Shown: positions 6,617-49,420 of the stretch, one piece after another
How the letters are laid out: every line of letters begins with the position of its first letter
How positions within the stretch are numbered: the first letter of the stretch is position 1
From: Acephala macrosclerotiorum
Lineage: Eukaryota > Ascomycota > Leotiomycetes > Helotiales > Mollisiaceae
Direction: 5' to 3'
Assembly: GCA_014904845.1 (NCBI GenBank)
Contig: MU119243.1
Coordinates: forward strand, 248,001-312,000
Length of the DNA: 64,000 nucleotides
The notes under the pieces: generated by a model
The model's input: the letters and a program-made list of their open reading frames with translations, nothing else
Told to the model about the DNA's origin: nothing
Databases searched by the model: none
Made by a program: the position numbers and the translations under genes

Positions 6617-8263
6617 TCATTTGGCCGGAAAGAATTCATCTGGAAGTTTCCAAGAAGGGTCGAACTCCGTCATAATTTTGACTGTCCGCTGCAGCACATC
6701 TCCGCTGTAAGCCAATTCAACTCTCTCATCGAAGTTCGCTGAATTCACAGTTAGTCTCACCTTCGAAACAGTGGTTAGTACAAGGAACTGGAAAAGAACT
6801 AACTTGGCACAGCTCGTCCCTCCAACAACCCCGACAGCTCTTTCGCTATCGTCTCATGACTCTCATCGCATCCAAAATTGCTCAGCATTTGAATGGAAGC
6901 CGCACGATTCCGTCTGATCTTCTCATAAAGTACCAAACGGGTTTCAATCTGCGAAGAATCCGTTACGCCGTGCATCACGAGACCAAGAGCCAGTCCATCT
7001 TCAATGCCTTGTGCGCCACCTTGTGCATAGTCTGGTTTCTGTGGTCAGCATCTTGATGGGATGTTGTGGGAAGAAGATGTGTTACGTGGAAGCATTGGAT
7101 GGGTAGCGTCTCCAACAAGCACCAGTTTGCTTTTGTGCCACGTTCGTATTGGAGGGCGGTAGAGAAGTGGCCAGCGTTTGACTTCTGTTGCTTTGCTGTT
7201 TGGGTCTTCTCAGTAATTCTTGCCCCGCATATGAAGAGTGATTTTAGGCTTACTTTATGACAGCGAGAAGATCTGGGTGATAACCAGCGAAAAGTTCGAG
7301 GACTTCACTTTTGTCTACTGCAGCGTGCCAATCTGACAAGGAGGTGGAATCAGCTGGTTTGCTAGGATGAGACTCATTCGCTCGAACACTTACCCTCTTT
7401 CTTGGCAATAACGCTATCATTATAGCAAAGAAGTGCAAAGTTGTGGATCTCGTGGCTATCTCGGTGTTAGATGCTGTCTATTGCATGTGGAGAATAATAA
7501 AGGCCACTCTCATACTTGCGACAGTTGTACGACACCAGTCGCCTGGGTTTCTCAGGGTCTGCATACACCCTGCACCCATGGCGTTGGTGACTCTGATTGA
7601 ACCATTGCGTTTCTGGGTTTGCGTCTAAGTCGGTTCTAGGAATGAGGAACCGATAGCAACAGTTCAGATTCCTGGTCGCCTCCGGATGGCTAGCTTCTCC
7701 AAGGATAACTTCAGCGGCATCAGAGTTGACCCCATCGGCAGCGATGACGAGGTCAGCGGTGATAATCGTCCCGTCTTGGAGTGTGATTGAAGGGGTGTTT
7801 GGATTCTATTCATTCATTAGCATGTATGAGCAGCCTCATGGTAACGTTCGTTTGAACTTACGTAACTACTAACACCAGATTTCAAATGAATCTTAACAGG
7901 AATTCCAGGCCCACCAGAATCAACTGCCATCTTCTTTAGACTTTCGTGGAGATCGACACGATGCGCATAGTAAAGCGGTTGTCCAAACTTCTCCGCATCG
8001 TGTGAATGATCATAGCACCCCAACTCCTCCAGCGTCGTTGGAGACACAAAAAACAATCCAGTCGACACTACGAAGCCATACTTCACTGGATCGAGTCCCC
8101 ATGGAATTAGGAATCGGCTGACGTTTGGTGGGACGTTGATCGCGGCGCCGACTTCATTGTTGAGAGAAGAGCGCTCGTAGATGGTGACCTGATGTCCGCT
8201 TCGGCGAAGCGATATCGCTGCTGCAAGCCCTGATATGCCGGCCCCGGCGATTAAAACATTCAT
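6617..8263 (-). CDS. FAD-dependent monooxygenase (salicylate hydroxylase-like)
   Basis: Seven exons on the minus strand, 8263-7862, 7805-7516, 7455-7394, 7332-7254, 7195-7086, 7031-6804 and 6738-6617, give 430 residues; all six introns are GT-AG and phases agree. The FAD/NAD(P)H-binding Rossmann motif is at the N-terminus ([13 protein letters not shown]). The DG motif appears as [10 protein letters not shown]. The second FAD-contact (GD) motif is [19 protein letters not shown], followed by [11 protein letters not shown]. Enzymes of this class hydroxylate aromatic or polyketide substrates using NAD(P)H and oxygen. No pathway genes flank it except a TRI12-type pump beyond the AT-rich block, so the substrate cannot be named. 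The model looks intact. Confidence 0.92.
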
Positions 8264-8540
8264 GTCGACGGTGTGTGTGATGTATTGTGGAGAGAGGAGG
8301 CGTTCGCTGCCAGACTAGTCACACAAGTTAAGGACTTGTGGCTGACGTCGAAGCGAGCAGCTCCTGGTTGCTTGCATTGGGAACTGCTGCAGGCATGCTG
8401 ATGTCTTATATGCTAGCTTATTTACGAAATTTAGGATACTGAGTAAGATCTTATTCTACATGTCAGAACGTCTGATAAAGATGTTGTCATACATAAGTAC
8501 ATGCACATGCGTCCAAAAGTATTCTGGTGGCGCTCTAAAC

Positions 8541-11500
8541 CAGTGTATTAAATGATTAAATTAAATTAGATTAATTACTTTTAATTTAAATTTAATCAAA
8601 GAAAATATAGTATTACTCTAATTCTAATCTAATTTAATCAAATTAATCTAGATTATAATTAATTAATATGATTAATACGTGATTATATTCGATTTTCGTT
8701 CAAAGAAACGAATAAAACTTTGAATTAAAGTTCGATCAATCGGAAATTACGAAGCTAAAACAGAACTAATATCGCGCACGCTACAATCGAACTATAAATG
8801 AAATATCGATCTTCGAATCAATTTTTTCTTTCGAATTTTTTTTATTTTATTATTTTATTATAAATCAAATAAATTATATAAAATTTTGATTTTTTTAATT
8901 TTTAATATTTTAAAATCAAAAAATAATTATAAATCAATAGAAATTTAAAAAAAAAACTATTAAAATAAAAGAAATTTTTATATAATTAAATAAATATTTT
9001 CGAATTTTTTTTTATTTTAAAAAAAATTAATATTAATTAAAATCGTAAAAATTTTAACGTTGAATTTTTTGAAAATCAAATTTTTATATTTAAATATAAA
9101 TTATTTGAAAATTTTTAAAATTTTATTAAAAAAAATTTCTCGAATTCAAATAATATTCGAATTTATACAATTAAATATTTTTATAAAAATTATAAATAAA
9201 TAATTTTTATTTTAAAAAATATTTAATTTATTAATATTATTTTAATAATAAATTTAATAATAAATAATTTATTTTAAATTTTAAAATAAAATTATAAATA
9301 TTAATAAATTTTTAAAAAAAAAATTTAAAATTATAATTTTTTAAACTCAAATAAATATTAAAAATAAATTTATTTTACAAAGAATTAATAAACGATTAAA
9401 AAATCTCAAAAAAACGTTTTAAATTGAAAAATTTAATAAATTATTATTAAATTTTTAATTTTTAATAATTTATTTGAAATTTTTTAAAAATTTAATATTT
9501 TATTATAATAAATAAACAATTAATTAATTATTTTTAATTAAAAAATATTAATTTCTATAATAATAAAATATTAAAAATATATTATTAAAAAATTAATAAT
9601 TAAATAAATAATTAAAAAACAAAAATTAAATAATAATAATTTTTTTTTGAATTTTAAATATTTAAATAATTATTAATTAAAATATATATTTTAAAATTAT
9701 AATATAAATTATTTTAATAATGATTTTTTTAAAAATATTTATTAATTATATTAATAATTATTTTATAAATAAAAACTTTAAATTAAAATTTTATTTATTA
9801 ATAATAAAAAATTTAAAAAATAAATATATTAATATTTATATATTTTAAATTTTAATTAAAATATTAAATATAATATTTAAAAATAAATTTCAATTTTTTG
9901 ATTTTTATTAATAATATTAAATTAATTTTTAATAGTATTATAAAAAATAATATTAATTCAAATAATATATTAATAAATATATTTCGTTTATATTATAATT
10001 ACAAAAATATAAAATTTAATAATAAAATTTTTTATATAATTTATATTTTGAATTTTGTAATTTAAAATATTTTAAAAGTTTTTATTAAAAATAATTATAA
10101 TTTTTTTAATAATAATAATAATTTTCAAATTAATAATAATTTATTTGAAAATATAAATAATAATATTTTTAATAAGTTTTTAAATATTTATTAATAATTT
10201 TTTTTAAATTTTTTAATTTGAAAAAAAATTAAAAAAATTATTATTAATTTAAAATATTTTTAAAAAAATATACGAATTTTAAAATTTCAAATTAAAATTC
10301 AAAATATTAAAAACTTTAAAATTTTATAATTAAATAAATAATTATTAATTTATTTTAAATCAAAAAATATATTAATTTTTAATAATTAAAATATTAAAAG
10401 ATTTTTTATATTTTATAAAAACAATTAATACGATTATTTAATTATTTGATTTAAAAAATTTTAAAAATAATAAATTAATATTATTTGAAAATAAAATTGA
10501 ATATTTAAAAAAAATTTTTAAAATTTTTAAATTATTTATTAAAATTACAATTAAATTATAAATAAAAAAATATTTTATTATTTATTATTTAATTTTTATA
10601 ATTTATAATATTTATAATAAATTAAATAAAATTAAAAAAAAATTAAATATAAATTATTGTTTTTTTTAATTATATATTTTCGTTTAATTTTATTTAATTT
10701 TTTTAAAGTTTTTAATTTTATTTTATTTATAATTTTTTGAATTTACAATTATTATTAATAAAAAATTAATCAAATTAAAAAAATATATTTCAAATAAAAA
10801 ATATATTTCAAAGTCAAATAAATTAATATATTTGATTTTAATTTTTAATTTTCAAATTTATAAAAAAAAATTATAAAACGTTAAATTTTTTAAAAATTAA
10901 AAAATTAATATTTATAATAAATTTTATAAAAATTATCAATTGTAAATTATTTGATTTATTAATTTTTTTATAAAAAAATTTATATTAATTTATATTTTAA
11001 TTATAAATAAAAATAATATAAATAAATTAATTCGATTTATAAATAAATTGTTTTTTTTTTATAAAATTTATATTAATATATAAATAAATAAAAAATTTTA
11101 ATTTTTAATAAAATAATAAAAATAAATATTTTATATTATTTTTAATTATTTGAAAATATTTTTAAATATTTATAATTTTAATTTTTTTCAAAAAAATCTT
11201 TTTATAAATTTTTTTAATTATTAATAAAACTAAAAATAAATTTATTAAAAAAATCTTTGAAATAATAATATATTTAAAAAATTGAAAAATTATTTAAAAA
11301 AATAATAATAATATTAAAAAAAAAATTATAAAAAAAATAAAAAATAATTTTTTTATTTAATAATAAATTTTTATTTATTTATTTATTTATAAAAATTTAA
11401 TATTTTATTTAAAATATCAAATTTTTATTATTTATAAAAATATTTAAAAAACATTATTTTTCAATATAATTACGTAATTAATCAAAGTTAATTTAGATTA

Positions 11501-11625
11501 TAATTAATTATAATTATTAATTTAATCAAATGTTTTTAAATTTTTGTTAATCAAATTTTAATCTAATTTAATCAAATTAATCTAGATTATAATTGATTAA
11601 TTTGATTTTTTTTGATCACGCTACT
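8541..11625. repeat. AT-rich, RIP-like degenerate block
   Basis: About 3.1 kb is almost entirely A and T, with no open frame of note on either strand, between ordinary-composition flanks. Such blocks in Pezizomycotina are usually transposons destroyed by repeat-induced point mutation (RIP). A 36-base identical segment occurs in the same orientation near both edges (8625-8660 and 11559-11594), with a more degenerate relative near 11478-11530. These may be remains of terminal repeats. The original element cannot be identified. Confidence 0.8.
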
Positions 11626-11660
11626 CTAAACATCCTCGACCGGAGTCGACGCTTGACATA

Positions 11661-11817
11661 CTGTGGTCTTAGGATAAATAAGTCCACCCCTAGGAGTTCT
11701 GAAGTCAGCCTCACCAAGGGTAGTGAGCCAATGCGAAAAGCGGAATTGGCGTAATTGTGGGGTCGAAAGTGCTAGAAGCAGATGCCAGGGGTGGACTTAT
11801 TTATCCAAAGACCACAG
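11661..11817. mobile_element. MITE, Tc1/mariner-like, 157 bases with TA target duplication
   Basis: Terminal inverted repeats of about 33 bases start CTGTGGTCTT on the left (11661-11693) and run to the matching complement on the right (11785-11817), with about two mismatches. A TA dinucleotide flanks both ends (11659-11660 and 11818-11819). There is no coding capacity. This is the pattern of a non-autonomous Tc1/mariner element. It lies at the right shoulder of the AT-rich block. Confidence 0.8.
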
Positions 11818-11819
11818 TA

Positions 11820-12601
11820 CTATGTGGAACCTAGTGTTTTGGCACATGAGGGAGACCGAATGCGAGTTTGGTAAAGAGCGCAGTGCATCTTTCTAAGAGC
11901 GAGATCCTACTGGGCGATGGGGTCTTTGTGCATATGCCGTGCTACCGGCAGAATGCAAGATAATTAATACACTCCAGACGACACATAGCCTAGAAACAGA
12001 GCTAATTTGATAGGCCGAATAGGCAACTCACGAGTCTCTTATCAGCATCGAACAATGTGCCATCGAAGGAGCATCGGCTTCTGTGAAATTATACTGTAAG
12101 ATCGGACAAGACTTGATTGATCTGCGCCTGCACCATTATTTGCCGAAACTAAAAAGACGGTCTGCCGGCACATCAAAACTATCACAGGCTAGCGTAAGGT
12201 TCCTTCTAACCTATTTGCTGGCTCCTGGGCTAGTCTTATCCTGCATGCAGCCAAGCGCAAGTGGTTTTGCTTCCGGATTTCCAAAATTCGTCGATCACAG
12301 CGACTCTTCGGACTTGGAGGTTTTGGCCTGTTCGTGCACTGTGCATGTCATGTCAAGGAACACCCGCCGAATGCCGGTCAGGAAGTCGATGCCCTTGAGT
12401 CGATGCCCTTGAAGTCATCTGAGCCCAATTTTTGCCTTCTCTCCCCTGTCTCTTCGCTTCGCGATCAATTCTGTCTACTTTCACTACCGGTACCACCCTC
12501 ATGGGATTCTCATCTGGTATTGTCTCCTATGTCATATTTTTTTCCCAGTCTGCACCTAGACTTCTCATCTCAACACTCCTCTGCCGCTGTGTGTCGCCAA
12601 C
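11820..12601. other. upstream region of the MFS pump gene
   Basis: No supported gene. A short duplicated segment (gtcgatgcccttga) occurs twice near 12385-12412. The stretch is the likely promoter of the downstream transporter. Confidence 0.4.
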
Positions 12602-36039: not shown

Positions 36040-36894
36040 TTACGAATTCGAGACTATCCAAGTTACTTGATTTGTTCCGTCATTAAATTCCATCTTTACT
36101 ATCATGTCCGTCATCTCGTCATCTGATTCTGCAATATCCTCGTCTATAACCTCTTCCCCTGTCTGAACGCCATGTCCATCAGAGTCCAGCATCGTTGCGC
36201 CCTTATTGTAGACGTCACCTACAAGATTGGCCGGCTTCCAAAAGCACCATCGCTTGTAATACAGCCTTTTTACGCGAAATCCGATAATAAAGTCTTCTGA
36301 CTCCTCAATCAACAACTCGTCTTGGTTTTCTTCCGCGTTGTGGAACGTCGGACCAACAGAGAGTCCCGTAAGACCACCAGGTTCCTTTAGCCCTAAATCC
36401 ATCTTGAGTTTCCGACTCCTTCCTATCTTCAGCTGGACAGCAGGACCACGAGCAATCTTTAGACCGGTGATCATGTACACTGGTTTGTAGCCAGATCCTA
36501 CAACATAGTCGTTGACATCGGGGAGGTTTATGCTTCGGTGTAGGTAGTCGCGAGTCGGATTGAAGTAGATTGTGTCGAGCGCTTTGAACTGGTAGGTATC
36601 GTTGGCAGTACGCTCAGTCGCCCAGCTCAACTCGCCACCTATTCCGGCTTGGGCCGCGAATTTGGCCCAAATTCCGTACTCTCCCCGCTCCATCTGTGCC
36701 CTGGATGAGGTAAATCCCTTCTTATGGTCGCAGTAAAGCTCTCGGACATCGATGGAGAGATGACAATCGATGTTGAGAGGCCGCTCACTGCCAAGACTCT
36801 TCAGATCGTCAATGATCATGCCCAAGTCAAGCTCTCCTCCTCTGTCAGGTGGCCCGAGGGAGAAGTTTGGTGATAGATGGTATGTTGGAAACAT
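36040..36894 (-). CDS. candidate fungal gasdermin-like pore-forming protein
   Basis: A single exon encodes 284 residues. There is no signal peptide. Residues 137-150 read KPVYMITGLKIARG and residues 202-213 FIIGFRVKRLYY. This spacing and pattern resemble the strand pair of gasdermin N-terminal domains (P-V-Y-V-T-E-V... and ...L-A-F-R-V-x-x-L). The last 65 residues form a short acidic tail (DEDIAESDDE at about 251-260). In Podospora, the gasdermin HET-Q1 has this size and is activated when the subtilisin HET-Q2 removes a short C-terminal piece. Here the gene upstream on the same strand, 578 bases away, encodes an S8 protease. Family assignment is my inference from pattern, length and neighbourhood; no search was run. 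If right, it acts at the plasma membrane in regulated cell death. Confidence 0.62.
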   Translation of the reverse strand: MFPTYHLSPNFSLGPPDRGGELDLGMIIDDLKSLGSERPLNIDCHLSIDVRELYCDHKKGFTSSRAQMERGEYGIWAKFAAQAGIGGELSWATERTANDTYQFKALDTIYFNPTRDYLHRSINLPDVNDYVVGSGYKPVYMITGLKIARGPAVQLKIGRSRKLKMDLGLKEPGGLTGLSVGPTFHNAEENQDELLIEESEDFIIGFRVKRLYYKRWCFWKPANLVGDVYNKGATMLDSDGHGVQTGEEVIDEDIAESDDEMTDMIVKMEFNDGTNQVTWIVSNS

Positions 36895-37472
36895 GGCGTT
36901 CCGAGCTCGAATTCTCTACGATGATTGGGTGCAATCAATTAAGAGGATCGTGGTCTACTTTCAGTGCTAGACAGGCTGGCTAGTGCTTCTAGAAGTATTA
37001 GGTCTCAGAAACAGAGTCTCAGTGATTAGACGAGACGCTCCTTGGGATGATCATCTACTCATAAAAGTATCGTTGTTGGGCTGAAGTTAGGCATCAAGAA
37101 TTGCACCAATGAGGTTGGTAAGACTCACTATTGGTTAGAGATATAATTAGGAAGCGATAAGATGAGGCTGAGATCATCTGACACGATATTAACTTTCATT
37201 TCTAGCTAATATCAGCCTAACGCCCCCTTCAGTACTTTCGCGTCAATGCTCCGTGCGTATTCAAAGTCGTCATATGAAGATACTTTGAGGTCGTTCCCTC
37301 TTGTTCGCGTATGTATACCTGAAAGAGGGCGCGCCTGTGCGTGGACCCAAATGGTAGAAAATTGAAGTCTCATGAACCCAAAAGTCTCTTGAGTAGTATA
37401 CGATATATCCCTCAGTGGAATGGATGAAGATGGGTGGGACGATCAATCAATTCAATTATAACTTCAGTAACC
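36895..37472. promoter_or_regulatory. spacer between S8 protease and gasdermin-like gene
   Basis: 578 bases between two same-strand genes. It should hold the protease 3' end and the gasdermin-like promoter. No further feature seen. Confidence 0.4.
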
Positions 37473-40462
37473 CTATGAAATATAGCCTGAGTTCCATATT
37501 TCTGGTATCTTGTCAGTATTCAGAAGCATTCGAATATTGTCACATATCTCCTCTATGTGGTCCTCCATCTGTTCCAGTCCAGCGTTCTGCCAGGGGAAAA
37601 TCTTCCACGGCGACACGTAGTCGTAGTCCCCCCGCGGAGATGACATACACCTGAACACCTGTCTCATGCCTGAATAGCTGCATAAACGTTCGTACTTATT
37701 CCGGTCGTGGATCTCCGTTAAGTGGTGCTTCGCGAATTCCAAGACGTTCGCTGCGATCCCCGCAGCTATCGGGGTAGCAAATGACGTCCCAGACTTAATA
37801 ACAGTCTCTCGGTTCCATCGAGACTCAATCCCACTTCCAAGGGTTGCAAAATTGTCGGCGCCTCTTTCCTTAGAGGGGTTGAACGAAGCTTGGTTTCCCA
37901 TTCCATCGGTTGCATGGACGCATATGACTCCAGTCAACGAAGCAGGATAAGCACGCGGCAGGTTTCCACCAGAGTTTGACGCGGCCGCAAAAACTAGCTT
38001 GCCTCTATTTATAGCTGCCTCTATCGCTTTGGTTATTGCACCTGGTCTTATATCAAGTCCGAATGACATTGTAATGATATGAGCATCACACTCGTCCGTC
38101 GCCCACCTGATTGCCTATTGAATAAGGTTTAGAAGTGTGCGAGATGTTGCTACGAACCGAGAGCAAACTTACATCCACAATATGATGCACTTGACTCTCT
38201 GATAAGTCCTTACCTTCCGAGATCTTTGCAATGAAGATGTCTGCAGAAGGGGCAACTTCCAGAAGCAGACGTACAACGTGTGTTCCATGACCATAGGAGT
38301 CTTCACAGTTTTCTGGTTTCGCTCTCCCAAGCTGCCCTGGACTCCAATAGCCACGAATTCGAGCCTTAGCAGCTCTGATCATGTTGTCGGTTCTAAGCAT
38401 CCCGGTGTCGAGAACAGCAATCCGAATTTTGTCCTCCCGTACTTGGGGTGAAGGACAAGTACCCTCAAAAACACCCAAAAGTGGGACGATGTACTGTTCA
38501 TGAAATTTCTTCATGTTTTCCATGAAAACTTTGCAAGTTTCACTCGAAGTAATCAGCATTTGTGTACCTCGTGATCAGATTCAAAGGGAAAGTGACTATG
38601 GTACTAACTTGTTAATGTCCTTGCTAATATTTATGTCATCGAAAAGAGTCAGAGTTGAAGCCCATGTGTAAATTCGGGGTAGTGCATCCGTCTTGATATC
38701 TTGTGCAAATACTCCAGATGCCGTGCGGCTATTGTAATGGCGAATTGGTGCCTTTCCCTTGAGCTCCGAATAGCTTGAGGCAGTACTTACTTGGGTTTGC
38801 CTTTGGGCCTTCGACTTTCTTGAAACAAATCGCAGATCTGCGTCGTTGGGCGTTGAACTTTTCCAGTCGGAGTAGTGTTTTCTCAGATTTTCGACTATGT
38901 TCCAGAGGATGATATGGCGTATCTTCATCTCCATATTCGTTCCTGGTGCCATGCCCAAGTCAAAGACAAATTCCAGACATCCAATCACAGCAGCGCGATA
39001 CGCCACAGCGATTTGGCCTCGCAATTCATGCTCGACGATGGTTTGCAGTTGATCGTAGAGGTCTTGATTCCTAGCGCCTGTTGGCGGAAGAACCTCTCCT
39101 CTCTCAATTTCGAGGAGGAGTCGCGCGAATGATAAGAGCACTGGCGGACAGATTTCGCCAGGCCTTGCTTCTAGAGCTTTGTTCTGAGTTCGATTGGGTA
39201 ATTCGTAGCAGATGTACGGTATATGACGCCCATGGATAATATCCGTTTCACTCTTGTTCAGGAAGAAAATCTGATCTGCATTCCAATCGCCAGGGCCCCA
39301 TGGGCCATCATAAAGGCAGAAAAAGCACCGTGCCAAGTTGAGCACCAGCAGGTACTTGTCCACTCTTGTGAAAGCAGAAGAGCTATCTCCGTCAGAGAAA
39401 GCACCAGCATCTAACAGCCGTCTTAATGAAACGCCAGGAACGGCGTGGCCCCACGTTAAATTCTGCTTCTTTGGTGATAACCAAAGACGGTCCTGATCGA
39501 AGGAAACGTGAAGAATCCGTTTGAACTTAGAATACTGCTCAATTGCGACGCAAATCGTCTCTTTCTCAGCTTCATCGGGTAAACAATCGTCTCTTCATCG
39601 CAGCGGGACATGGTGTTAGCTTTGGACGGATGATGGCGATTGGACGAGACTTGACTTACTCGGTCATTACACAGTGGGTCTCGTGCCACAGTATTGATGG
39701 GAGACAAGGTGAAATAAACAACTCGAAGCGGGATTCCGGGATCCGGCTGCGGTCTTCCTCAAACCCAGATAACTGGAGCATCACTTCATGGTGGGGACCA
39801 CATCCAGTCCGTGAAAACTCTCTCTCAAGGTGATTGTATAAGTGGGATGAATGCTCTCGGATAAGGCGATTTCTGGCTGTCTCGGTACTTGTAGTCGTGG
39901 ATTTACCTGAGAAGCGCGATGTTGCTTCCATCTCTCTATTGGCTGCTGTAAAATGCTCAATAGCTGTCTGGCGTTCATGACTGTTGCTGAGTTCAAGTAA
40001 GTCCTGAGCCTGGGGACGTCTTCCATGTTCCACGGCAGATCGAAGGGCTGCCAACAGTGGCTTGTCGGAATAGTTGTCTCTTGCTACATTTCAGAGTAGA
40101 GGGCTGGTGTCAGACTTTGATCTCAGATGTTGAAAACTCGATCGTTCGCTGGGGTGTAGCATACCGGAGGTAGTATAGTGAGAGTTTACTCTCATAAACT
40201 GCTGTTCACAGTATCTATTTAGATCATTGATTGCGTATGCAGTACCCTCTTGTTCTGTCAGATTATGCTCAAGTGTCTTCGCCTCGAATTCGAGGAAGGC
40301 TCGGTCGGTTTCGATGTCCTCTGCGTCGTCATCGCTATCGTCTCCGCCATTGCTCCAACTACTTTCGTTTTTTGTATCCTGTGTTTCAATATCATCTTGA
40401 ATAATGCGCGAAATGAATCGCGCGACCCCAAAAGGGTCCCACGATCCTGGCCAAAGGCGCAT
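37473..40462 (-). CDS. subtilisin-like (S8) protease with N-terminal DUF7580-type region
   Basis: Five exons, 40462-40165, 40083-39660, 39592-38609, 38542-38173 and 38114-37473, give 905 residues; all introns are GT-AG and phases agree. The first 240 residues are hydrophilic, with an acidic run and a coiled part. Residues about 240-560 resemble the fungal DUF7580 region (LVLNLARCFFCLYDGPWGPG, then HIPYICYELP). The S8 domain follows with all catalytic parts: Asp in IAVLDTGM (about 614), His in YGHGTHVV (about 654), Asn in AAASNSGG (about 739) and Ser in SGTSFATP (about 803). There is no signal peptide, so it is probably intracellular. It is the closest upstream neighbour of the gasdermin-like gene, fitting a HET-Q2-like activator role. 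Confidence 0.85.
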
Positions 40463-41093
40463 AGCCAAGTCAACATAAGATACAAGGACTCAAGGCTGCG
40501 ATGTGGCCATAGCCTATAGCCTTGCCAATTCAGGGCAAAATATCCTTACGCCGGCGTTTAAGCTTTATGATCCCAAAATGACGTCGCAAGTCCAGGATGA
40601 GACATCAAAACATTGAAGAGCTGTGATGAGGCAGGATGTCCTATATTTGTGTCTGGACATCCGATCCGATTCGGGACGCGAACGCTCCGTAAAGGGCAGG
40701 TTAAGGTTAGCGTGATGAAAACTGCAGGCTGGTATAATTTTTTCTCGTCAATTTAACATCCTCGGGGTTTCAACTCTACAGTAACCTTATCTATTGCACT
40801 TGTACCGACAACGGTGAAGGATCTCCACACCGAGACTTTTGCTAACGAACTATTCAGACGAAGTGTTATGCTGCTTACGATCTCTAGAACTAATCTTGAC
40901 AGCACCTACGGCACAAGTTGGAGCTCTCCGATCTGCAGCCTCTTCAGTGCATGTTTCATTCCAGTATGAGTAAACCAACAGTGACCACTACACGAACAGA
41001 CACTAACCTGTTATACCCAGCTCTAGCTAGCATAATCTCACTTTAGGTCGACTAACCACGGAAGTCTCAACATGGAGCCCGAGGTACAGCCCT
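40463..41093. promoter_or_regulatory. upstream region of the S8 gene, up to the transposon edge
   Basis: The right part contains ATG at 41072 in good context (AAC before, G after), followed by GAGCCCGAGGTACAGCCC. It then runs into the transposon end at 41094. This may be the true start of the gene now found at 44673 (see findings). Confidence 0.4.
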
Positions 41094-47600: not shown

Positions 47601-49420
47601 TTAGAAGCCCGTGTAGTTTTACCATTCATTGAGGATGAGGCTAATGATAATGCGGTGGAGCAATGGGGTGGTTTCGGCAATGTGTGGAAGGTAAAGATAC
47701 ATCCTGCTCACTGTAACAACAAGGTACGTCTTGAGTTGATCTTGATTATTATACCTTATGTCCTATCGAAGAGGTCTACCTAACCACATGAGTAGACTTT
47801 CCAAAACGAAAACCCCTATTATGCCCTGAAAAGGCTAGGGTATAATAGTGTGGATCTTTTCAAAAGCGAGGTTTCGAATCTAAAGCGATTTAGCGGCAGG
47901 AAGAGTCACCTACATCTTGTCAGGCTTCTTATCACCTTCTCTTGGCGAGAGCAGTATTATCTTTTATTTCCATGGGCGGATAGTAATCTTTTCGATTTCT
48001 GGAAACGATATCCCTACCCGTCTAATTTTGAGCAAGACTATTATCGACTTACCTTGTGGTTTGCAAAACAATGCCAGGGAATCGCGGAGGGACTAAAGAT
48101 GGGTCAAACTATCGATTCACCTGATACAGAAGGTTCAGTCCCAAGAAGACATGGAGATCTTAAGCCAGAAAATATCCTCTGGTTTAGAGGATGTCAGGGC
48201 AAAGATCCGACCTCACTCATGGGACATCTAAAGATTTCAGATTTTGGTTTGACTCGGTTCCATCAATCCACGGCCAGAGCGAGTACCAATCAGAAGGTCA
48301 TGGTGTCACCCACTTATAGAGCACCAGAGTACGATGTGACCAAAATGGTTTCACAACAAGATGATGCATGGGCGCTGGGGTGTATTCTTCTCGAGTTTGT
48401 CACATGGTTCCTTATGGGATGTGAAGAAGTCGATGAGTTTTCCAGGAAACGAGCGGCGGATGATATCTCTGGAATTAGACAGGACGCATTCTTTAACTTT
48501 TACGAGATGGAGGATAACCAAGGGCCTGTACGATTATGCGCAAAATTCAAACGGTCGATACACGATGTAAGTCCCTTTCGTGCGAGTAATACAACCTTGT
48601 AAAGCTAATTGGTTTTCTTGCGTAGGAAATTAAGCTGTTAACTCAACATCAGGATTGCTCTGACTATTTGTCGGACTTGCTTGAATTCGTCAGCAATAGA
48701 CTTCTTCGCATGAGTCCCCTCAAAAGGGCGAATTGCACTGAGGTCGTGGAATATTTTATCGAGCTCCACCAAAGATGCACAACTGACCCAACATACTGTA
48801 CAAAGCGGGTAAAGGCAACTATAGCTCGCTCAGGGTCAGATTTGTCTGTCATAAGCCCCACGTCGCTCTTTATTAGTGATGCGACTCGACGTAAAATACA
48901 GAGCATCGTCCTACCAGAAACCGATTCTGGGACACTTCCCAGCCCATATTCTACAAAATCTCTGGACTTCGATTTGGCCGGGAATATACCGGTACACAAC
49001 AAGTCTGGCTGGTCAGTGGACACCCCAAGGAGATCGACCAGCCCCGACAATATTGAGCCAGAGACTTTACACCTTGCACCACCCAGGAGGGTTCATTTCC
49101 TGGACGCATCTGGATCTTCGCTTGGAGAGATGGCAGTGGACACCCAAGGGAGACCGATCAGCCCCGACAATATTGAGCCACAGACTTCACAACATGCACC
49201 GCCTAGGGGGATTAATTTCGTATCCGGAATTTCACTTAAAGATATAGGAGATCTACATGATATGCCGGCTGAGGATGATGCACAGAGAAAACAAGAGAGT
49301 CCTGTCGCATCAAGCTCCAATGATTCTGATCTTCAAGCTTCACGGCCACAATCGCCGTCTAATCGGACTAAGAGTTTCTGGAAGAGGCTGCAGAAACCTT
49401 TCAGGACTGAAAAAAAATAA
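44673..49420 (+). CDS. C2H2-type zinc-finger plus protein-kinase protein, 5' end lost at transposon
   Basis: Six exons, 44673-44943, 45007-45700, 45750-46602, 46674-47723, 47796-48566 and 48626-49420, give 1,477 residues without a start codon. Near residue 15 comes SIFDLARDCASLFEEYL, the usual N-terminus of fungal C2H2-type conflict proteins. Finger-like Cys/His groups occur around HAICPFCFEEFL, CISDECNHSLLYFGSF and GTCPLCYEDI. The kinase part has ALKRLG (VAIK lysine), HGDLKPENIL (near 1075), KISDFGLTR and PTYRAPEYD, so it should be active. No stop separates the finger part from the kinase part. The first in-frame ATG is only at 44829, so the N-terminus is lost at the transposon edge. Two adjacent genes remain possible, with a kinase start near 47096. 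Confidence 0.75.
49014..49253 (+). repeat. 120-base tandem duplication inside the kinase gene
   Basis: Two copies with a 120-base period, 49014-49133 and 49134-49253, each encode a VDT-x-x-R...SPDNIEP...APPR unit in the last exon. The period is a multiple of three, so the frame is kept. Confidence 0.85.

Follow-up and report, generated by a model that had tools for sequence, protein, structure and literature searches.

Gasdermin-like and DUF7580-S8 protease genes side by side in Acephala macrosclerotiorum: a probable two-gene fungal gasdermin cluster

Fungal gasdermins and their neighboring proteases

According to recent reviews, a protease gene adjoins about 80% of the gasdermin genes of fungi, approximately 63% lying beside an S8 (subtilisin-type) and 19% beside a CHAT protease gene (PMC10197012), and certain species possess more than 20 gasdermins (PMC10989679, PMC10197012). 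That proteases can activate fungal gasdermins has been demonstrated elsewhere, for HET-Q1/HET-Q2 and for a CHAT two-gene cluster (PMC12881547, PMC10989679), the CHAT evidence including a TPR-CHAT protease that activates the gasdermin with which it is clustered (PMC12881547). The present work concerns a pair of this kind in a 64,000-nucleotide stretch of the genome of Acephala macrosclerotiorum (contig MU119243.1, positions 248,001 to 312,000), hereinafter the window, where a gene for a 284-residue gasdermin-like protein adjoins a gene for a 905-residue protease with a DUF7580 and an S8 domain.

The species belongs to the Mollisiaceae, a family known for its root associates. The parent assembly comprises 69.66 Mb in 778 contigs. 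All evidence considered below was obtained in silico, and it suggests that the pair is very probably a two-gene fungal gasdermin cluster: a pore former restrained by its tail and a sensor S8 protease that would cut it, killing the cell.

A gasdermin and a DUF7580-S8 protease encoded side by side

The 284-residue protein harbors the two strands named in its preliminary description, KPVYMITGLKIARG (beginning at residue 137) and FIIGFRVKRLYY (beginning at residue 202). Its homologues number 42, the protein itself not counted (E 6.9e-167 to 9.3e-17), and the gasdermin profile matches the solved structures of RCD-1-2 (1.5e-17), RCD-1-1 (2.2e-16), and HET-Q1 (1.1e-11). The best fold-search matches of its predicted structure are likewise gasdermins, in line with the gasdermin beta-sheet fold expected at the outset, the RCD-1 matches ending at about residue 235. 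The HET-Q1 pore entry 9uv9 is not among the 50 matches listed in either fold search, a result uninformative either way. A Pfam search with the 284-residue protein returned no match, and the same search with the 39 members of the gasdermin family set (the window's protein among them) gave a lone match at chance level (VMAP-M12, E 0.1). Overall, the homology to RCD-1 and HET-Q1 and the N-domain fold of the model support the assignment of this protein to the fungal gasdermins, with oligomerization and pore formation as predicted properties.

The protein ends in a short acidic tail, as originally noted. The tail comprises the last 48 residues with a net charge of -13, and acidic tails are present in 39/39 family members (charge -8 to -17, length 30–63 residues); W279, near its very end, is conserved in at least 90% of the family. 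The HET-Q2 cut of HET-Q1 at F238 removes 40 residues (PMC10989679). The size and position of the tail considered here fit a removable piece of the HET-Q1 type, and by this analogy it may be inhibitory.

Upstream on the same strand, 578 bases before the gasdermin gene, lies the protease gene. Its independent manual splicing, with four GT-AG introns of 58–81 bases and no internal stop, gave exactly the 905 residues ascribed to it before; the splice sites were picked by eye, the second acceptor being the least certain. The S8 catalytic set is intact: Asp614, His654, Asn739, and Ser803 reside in the canonical contexts VLDTGM, SYGHGTHV, AASNSGGN, and GTSFATP, respectively. The N-terminus, MRLWPGSWDPFGVARFISRIIQDD..., displays no obvious signal peptide when inspected by eye (no predictor was run), in agreement with the intracellular location suggested earlier. 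Pfam places Peptidase_S8 (PF00082) on the open reading frames (ORFs) of exons 4–5 and DUF7580 (PF24476), a domain absent from the preliminary description, on those of exons 2–3. The reading frames of both genes are intact, and the pair is not a product of chance, given the 42 homologues of the gasdermin and, for the protease, a full-length homologue with 84% identity.

In one public record a homologue of the gasdermin is labelled “major facilitator superfamily mfs-1”, apparently a misannotation.

Pairing across the genome and in other fungi

Gasdermin loci were sought in the whole genome with seven gasdermin queries (clade or paralogues), blind to the neighboring genes. This yielded 16 loci including that of the window, the weak matches C75:158555 (E 0.25) and C249 (E 4.8) being excluded. 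A profile built from the family set, and hence containing the window's own sequence, recovers 15/16 of these loci in the ORF set at E ≤3.5e-15; the 16th, on contig C286, was added afterwards through its match to one paralogue (E 2.8e-18).

A Peptidase_S8 match lies 402–3400 bases from 15 of the 16 loci, whereas 0.07 of 16 would be expected within 5 kb by chance, given 31 S8 loci and assuming uniform placement. The pairs are oriented in every manner (5 tandem, 5 divergent, and 5 convergent), and therefore the adjacency has been kept although the arrangement has not. At the lone unpaired locus (C286:26097-27605), an ORF of 503 residues joins a gasdermin-like part to a long Ser/Thr-rich C-terminal region, on a contig with no S8 or CHAT match; the similarity of the encoded protein to the gasdermin profile is modest (hhalign probability 86%).

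The association is particularly tight for the DUF7580-bearing proteases. The 31 S8 loci include 11 in which a DUF7580 match precedes the S8 match on the same strand by no more than 3 kb; each of the 11 has a gasdermin neighbor, as against 4 of the 20 S8 loci lacking an upstream DUF7580 (Fisher p 1.6e-5). The window's protease gene was the one spliced, and a single gene is presumed for the other 10 DUF7580-S8 loci. One of the four gasdermin-paired S8 loci without DUF7580 displays TPR-like repeats (E 1.6e-5, below the Pfam cut-off). Sixteen S8 loci lack a gasdermin neighbor; around 11 of them, no gasdermin ORF was detected at E 0.01 within approximately 10 kb, the other five being covered by the genome-wide searches only. 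A comparison by eye revealed 12 additional DUF7580 matches with no S8 match nearby. Taken together, the pairing counts within the genome (15/16 and 11/11) make the gasdermin–protease link hard to doubt.

The pair at C31:252888-257050 may be decayed: its gasdermin ORF has only 191 residues, and the matched S8 part lacks the G[TS]SxA serine motif.

Among the matches listed, Phialocephala subalpina is the closest other genome for the pair: its S8 protease PAC_08353 (84% identical across the entire query) and its gasdermin PAC_08354 (87%), the closest homologues of the two window proteins, bear consecutive locus tags and lie on contigs of equal length. The same is true of Cadophora sp. M221 (S8 IFR05_000513 and gasdermin IFR05_000514). 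In Stipitochalara longipes, both homologues reside on one contig of 1,790,034 bases under non-consecutive tags, the contig being assumed to be the same. Thus, the expectation that relatives of the gasdermin gene would be found beside S8 genes was borne out by two other fungi, by a third on the assumption of a shared contig, and by most of the loci within the genome.

A second, divergent family beside CHAT proteases

Only 199 bases separate the locus C249:64039-64797, first set aside owing to its weak match, from a CHAT protease match. A search with the gene at this locus returned seven loci, one of which (C27, E 1.8) belongs to the first set; the remaining six, including the query, are C249, C214, C245, C223, C84, and C20, with C84 being weak (E 0.27). 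All except C20 are situated 199–3795 bases from a CHAT match (5/6, with 0.01 expected within 6 kb for 14 CHAT loci). The link of this second family to gasdermins is modest (hhalign probability 56%, E 1e-4 for the C249 protein), and because the hhalign matches to the gasdermin profile are modest for both the C249 and the C286 protein, the two are termed only gasdermin-like here. On its own, the C249 protein retrieved no gasdermin from the solved structures, and Pfam gave FAD_oxidored (E 0.0029), a weak and presumably chance match.

According to a published statement, approximately 17% of Q2-like proteins have a CHAT domain. A second family beside CHAT genes fits this figure as well as the 19% CHAT share of fungal gasdermins cited above. 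The contig of the window's pair has no CHAT match, i.e., its gasdermin is not a CHAT-paired one.

Gene structure and surroundings of the pair

Features of the gasdermin–protease pair; positions are those of the window
Feature	Position	Strand	Basis
Fungal gasdermin-like gene, single exon, 284 aa	36040..36894	-	
Predicted pore-forming (gasdermin N) domain, residues 1-236, boundary approximate	36187..36894	-	RCD-1 structural matches cover model residues 1-235
Acidic C-terminal tail, residues 237-284 and stop, net charge -13, predicted inhibitory piece	36040..36186	-	Inhibition proposed by analogy with HET-Q1
DUF7580-S8 protease gene, 5 exons, 905 aa	37473..40462	-	Splice model and PAC_08353 homology
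Exon 1, N-terminal region	40165..40462	-	No Pfam match on ORF 40091-40468
Exon 2, start of DUF7580	39660..40083	-	PF24476 E 2.5e-13 on ORF 39656-40054
Exon 3, bulk of DUF7580 (fold predicted as kinase-like), conserved catalytic motif not seen	38609..39592	-	PF24476 E 5.5e-36 on ORF 38596-39363
Exon 4, linker and S8 Asp614/His654	38173..38542	-	Exon 4 piece alone below Pfam cut-off
Exon 5, S8 Asn739/Ser803 and C-terminus	37473..38114	-	PF00082 E 5.8e-13 on ORF 37473-38069
Gap of 578 bases, protease stop to gasdermin ATG, presumed gasdermin promoter	36895..37472	-	

Beyond the gasdermin gene, on the side away from the protease, there is an AT-rich stretch and, further on, a gene for an 808-residue DUF3433 protein on the opposite strand. 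The G+C content of the window drops to 15.9% in the AT-rich block 8001-12000, the remaining 4-kb blocks showing 39–49%. About 7 kb from the pair, the ORF 47850-48602 (+) encodes a conventional-looking kinase with the catalytic-loop motif HGDLKPENI.

Proposed mechanism and its alternatives

In the proposed sequence of events, the 284-residue protein would be made in an inactive form, restrained by its short acidic tail. The cytosolic protease would serve as the sensor, its N-terminal and kinase-like DUF7580 parts keeping the S8 domain inactive until a trigger arrives, candidates being infection, damage, and a partner met through hyphal fusion. The released S8 domain would then cut the gasdermin in the region of residue 236, the bond following a hydrophobic residue (M235 or L236, for instance) being the probable site, and the freed N-terminal domain would oligomerize in the plasma membrane, so that the cell dies in a defence or non-self response.

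What triggers these protease sensors is called a major open question in PMC12881547, and the kinase-like reading of DUF7580 suggests a route by which such proteases might sense their trigger. The domain has a predicted kinase-like fold. At its presumed catalytic loop, the place of which in the alignment was chosen by eye, there is no HRD or DFG motif, and the residues vary among the 24 rows shown, the window's included. It is conceivable, although held here as a tentative proposal somewhat short of an even chance, that DUF7580 is a degenerate (pseudokinase-like) sensor gating the S8 domain, which would give fungi a death pathway that runs from a pseudokinase through a protease to a gasdermin. 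If true, sensing of the MLKL kind would be coupled to a pyroptosis-like executioner, and Mollisiaceae genomes would carry a dozen or so parallel sensor modules. A literature search returned no publication on DUF7580, nor on gasdermin with Phialocephala (the genus Acephala was not searched by name). This species or the DUF7580-S8 architecture may already figure in the supplement of Clavé et al. 2022.

Several observations weigh against the tail-restrained, protease-activated pore former. As many as 42 of the 48 tail residues lie in segments with a predicted local distance difference test score (pLDDT) below 50, and therefore an inhibitory contact is not seen in the model. The pore core is about neutral (charge -1; family range -5 to +6), hence simple masking of basic residues by acidic ones is not obvious. 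The Foldseek match to RCD-1 has low template-modeling (TM) scores (0.41/0.58) with a root-mean-square deviation of 11.1. Of the 42 other gasdermin homologues, no more than 3 could be assigned to a contig that also carries an S8 homologue, a count that is a lower bound since the search output gives no genomic context for the others and the S8 search scored just the 7991 candidates with the most words in common, 66 being listed.

The distance comparison belongs among these observations too. Gasdermin and S8 distances correlate over the 15 pairs (r 0.455, p 5e-4; Mantel r 0.46, p 6.5e-4 when recalculated) and also after removal of the two partial loci (r 0.51, p 3e-4), but with the loci C27a and C91 left out as well, r falls to 0.16 (p 0.19). 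For either gene, these two are mutual nearest neighbors (63% and 47% identity), and each is a divergently oriented pair, which suggests that they were probably duplicated as a unit. As the correlation is carried by this duplicate pair, no general co-evolution across the pairs is claimed, and duplication as a unit is proposed for this one pair only.

Among the alternatives, an allorecognition locus of the het-Q or rcd-1 type, acting in heterokaryon incompatibility with the killing of unlike fused cells as its main role, fares best, though it is unlikely. Such a role is attested for two characterized fungal gasdermins, HET-Q1 and RCD-1, both of which act in allorecognition (PMC12881547). However, the window has both the protease and the gasdermin, and P. 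subalpina and a Cadophora have retained the pair, whereas the het-Q genes are alternatives at one locus; moreover, the long multidomain protease points to a sensor rather than to a stripped-down S8 protein such as the shorter HET-Q2 (lengths are compared below). Considerably less probable is that the two genes are unrelated neighbors, i.e., an ordinary intracellular protease next to a gasdermin activated otherwise, e.g., via hetero-oligomers in the manner of RCD-1, for which activation without a protease is reported (PMC12881547); this is opposed by the pairing of 15/16 loci in the genome, by the pairing in other species, and by the adjacency kept despite varied orientation. Finally, the mean pLDDT of 66, the lack of a Pfam match, and the low TM-scores could be taken to mean that the 284-residue protein is another beta-rich protein with a superficial resemblance to gasdermins, a reading hardly credible beside the profile matches to RCD-1 and HET-Q1.

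Comparison with known systems

In Podospora anserina, HET-Q1 is close in size to the protein described here (278 vs. 284 aa), and both have a short C-terminal tail; HET-Q1 is controlled by an S8 protein (PMC10989679). The preliminary description regarded HET-Q2 as encoded next door to HET-Q1. This does not hold, because het-Q1 and het-Q2 are idiomorphs, i.e., alternatives at one locus (PMC12881547), whereas both genes adjoin here, side by side in the single genome examined. HET-Q2 is also much shorter, with 388 aa (PMC10989679) against the 905 aa including DUF7580. Among solved structures, the best match of the window's gasdermin, by sequence profile and by fold, is Neurospora crassa RCD-1, which is triggered by an unlike allelic variant and not by proteolysis (PMC12881547). 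Bacterial gasdermins share the fold, at 9–11% identity in the aligned rows, and the clustering with protease genes (PMC12881547).

The right comparison is therefore with the gasdermin/Q2-like two-gene clusters and not with het-Q itself. There, an S8 multidomain protease gene is likewise found within a few kb, in many copies per genome, and repeats (ANK, TPR, WD40) are the domains reported most often for annotated Q2-like proteins (PMC10197012), the additional domain being DUF7580 in the present case. PMC12881547 names “other predicted kinase-like domains” for such proteins, and the DUF7580-S8 architecture may already have been counted among them. Hence, the claim of membership in a toxin-like death system is supported for the pair as such, which represents an instance of a widespread arrangement and not an unusual independent system. 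The analysis places one more gasdermin–protease pair in a Mollisiaceae fungus, along with a genome-wide count of the pairing. On each testable feature the window's pair fits the known kind of two-gene gasdermin cluster; it is one of approximately 15 such pairs in this genome, and the type of system is already known from other fungi.

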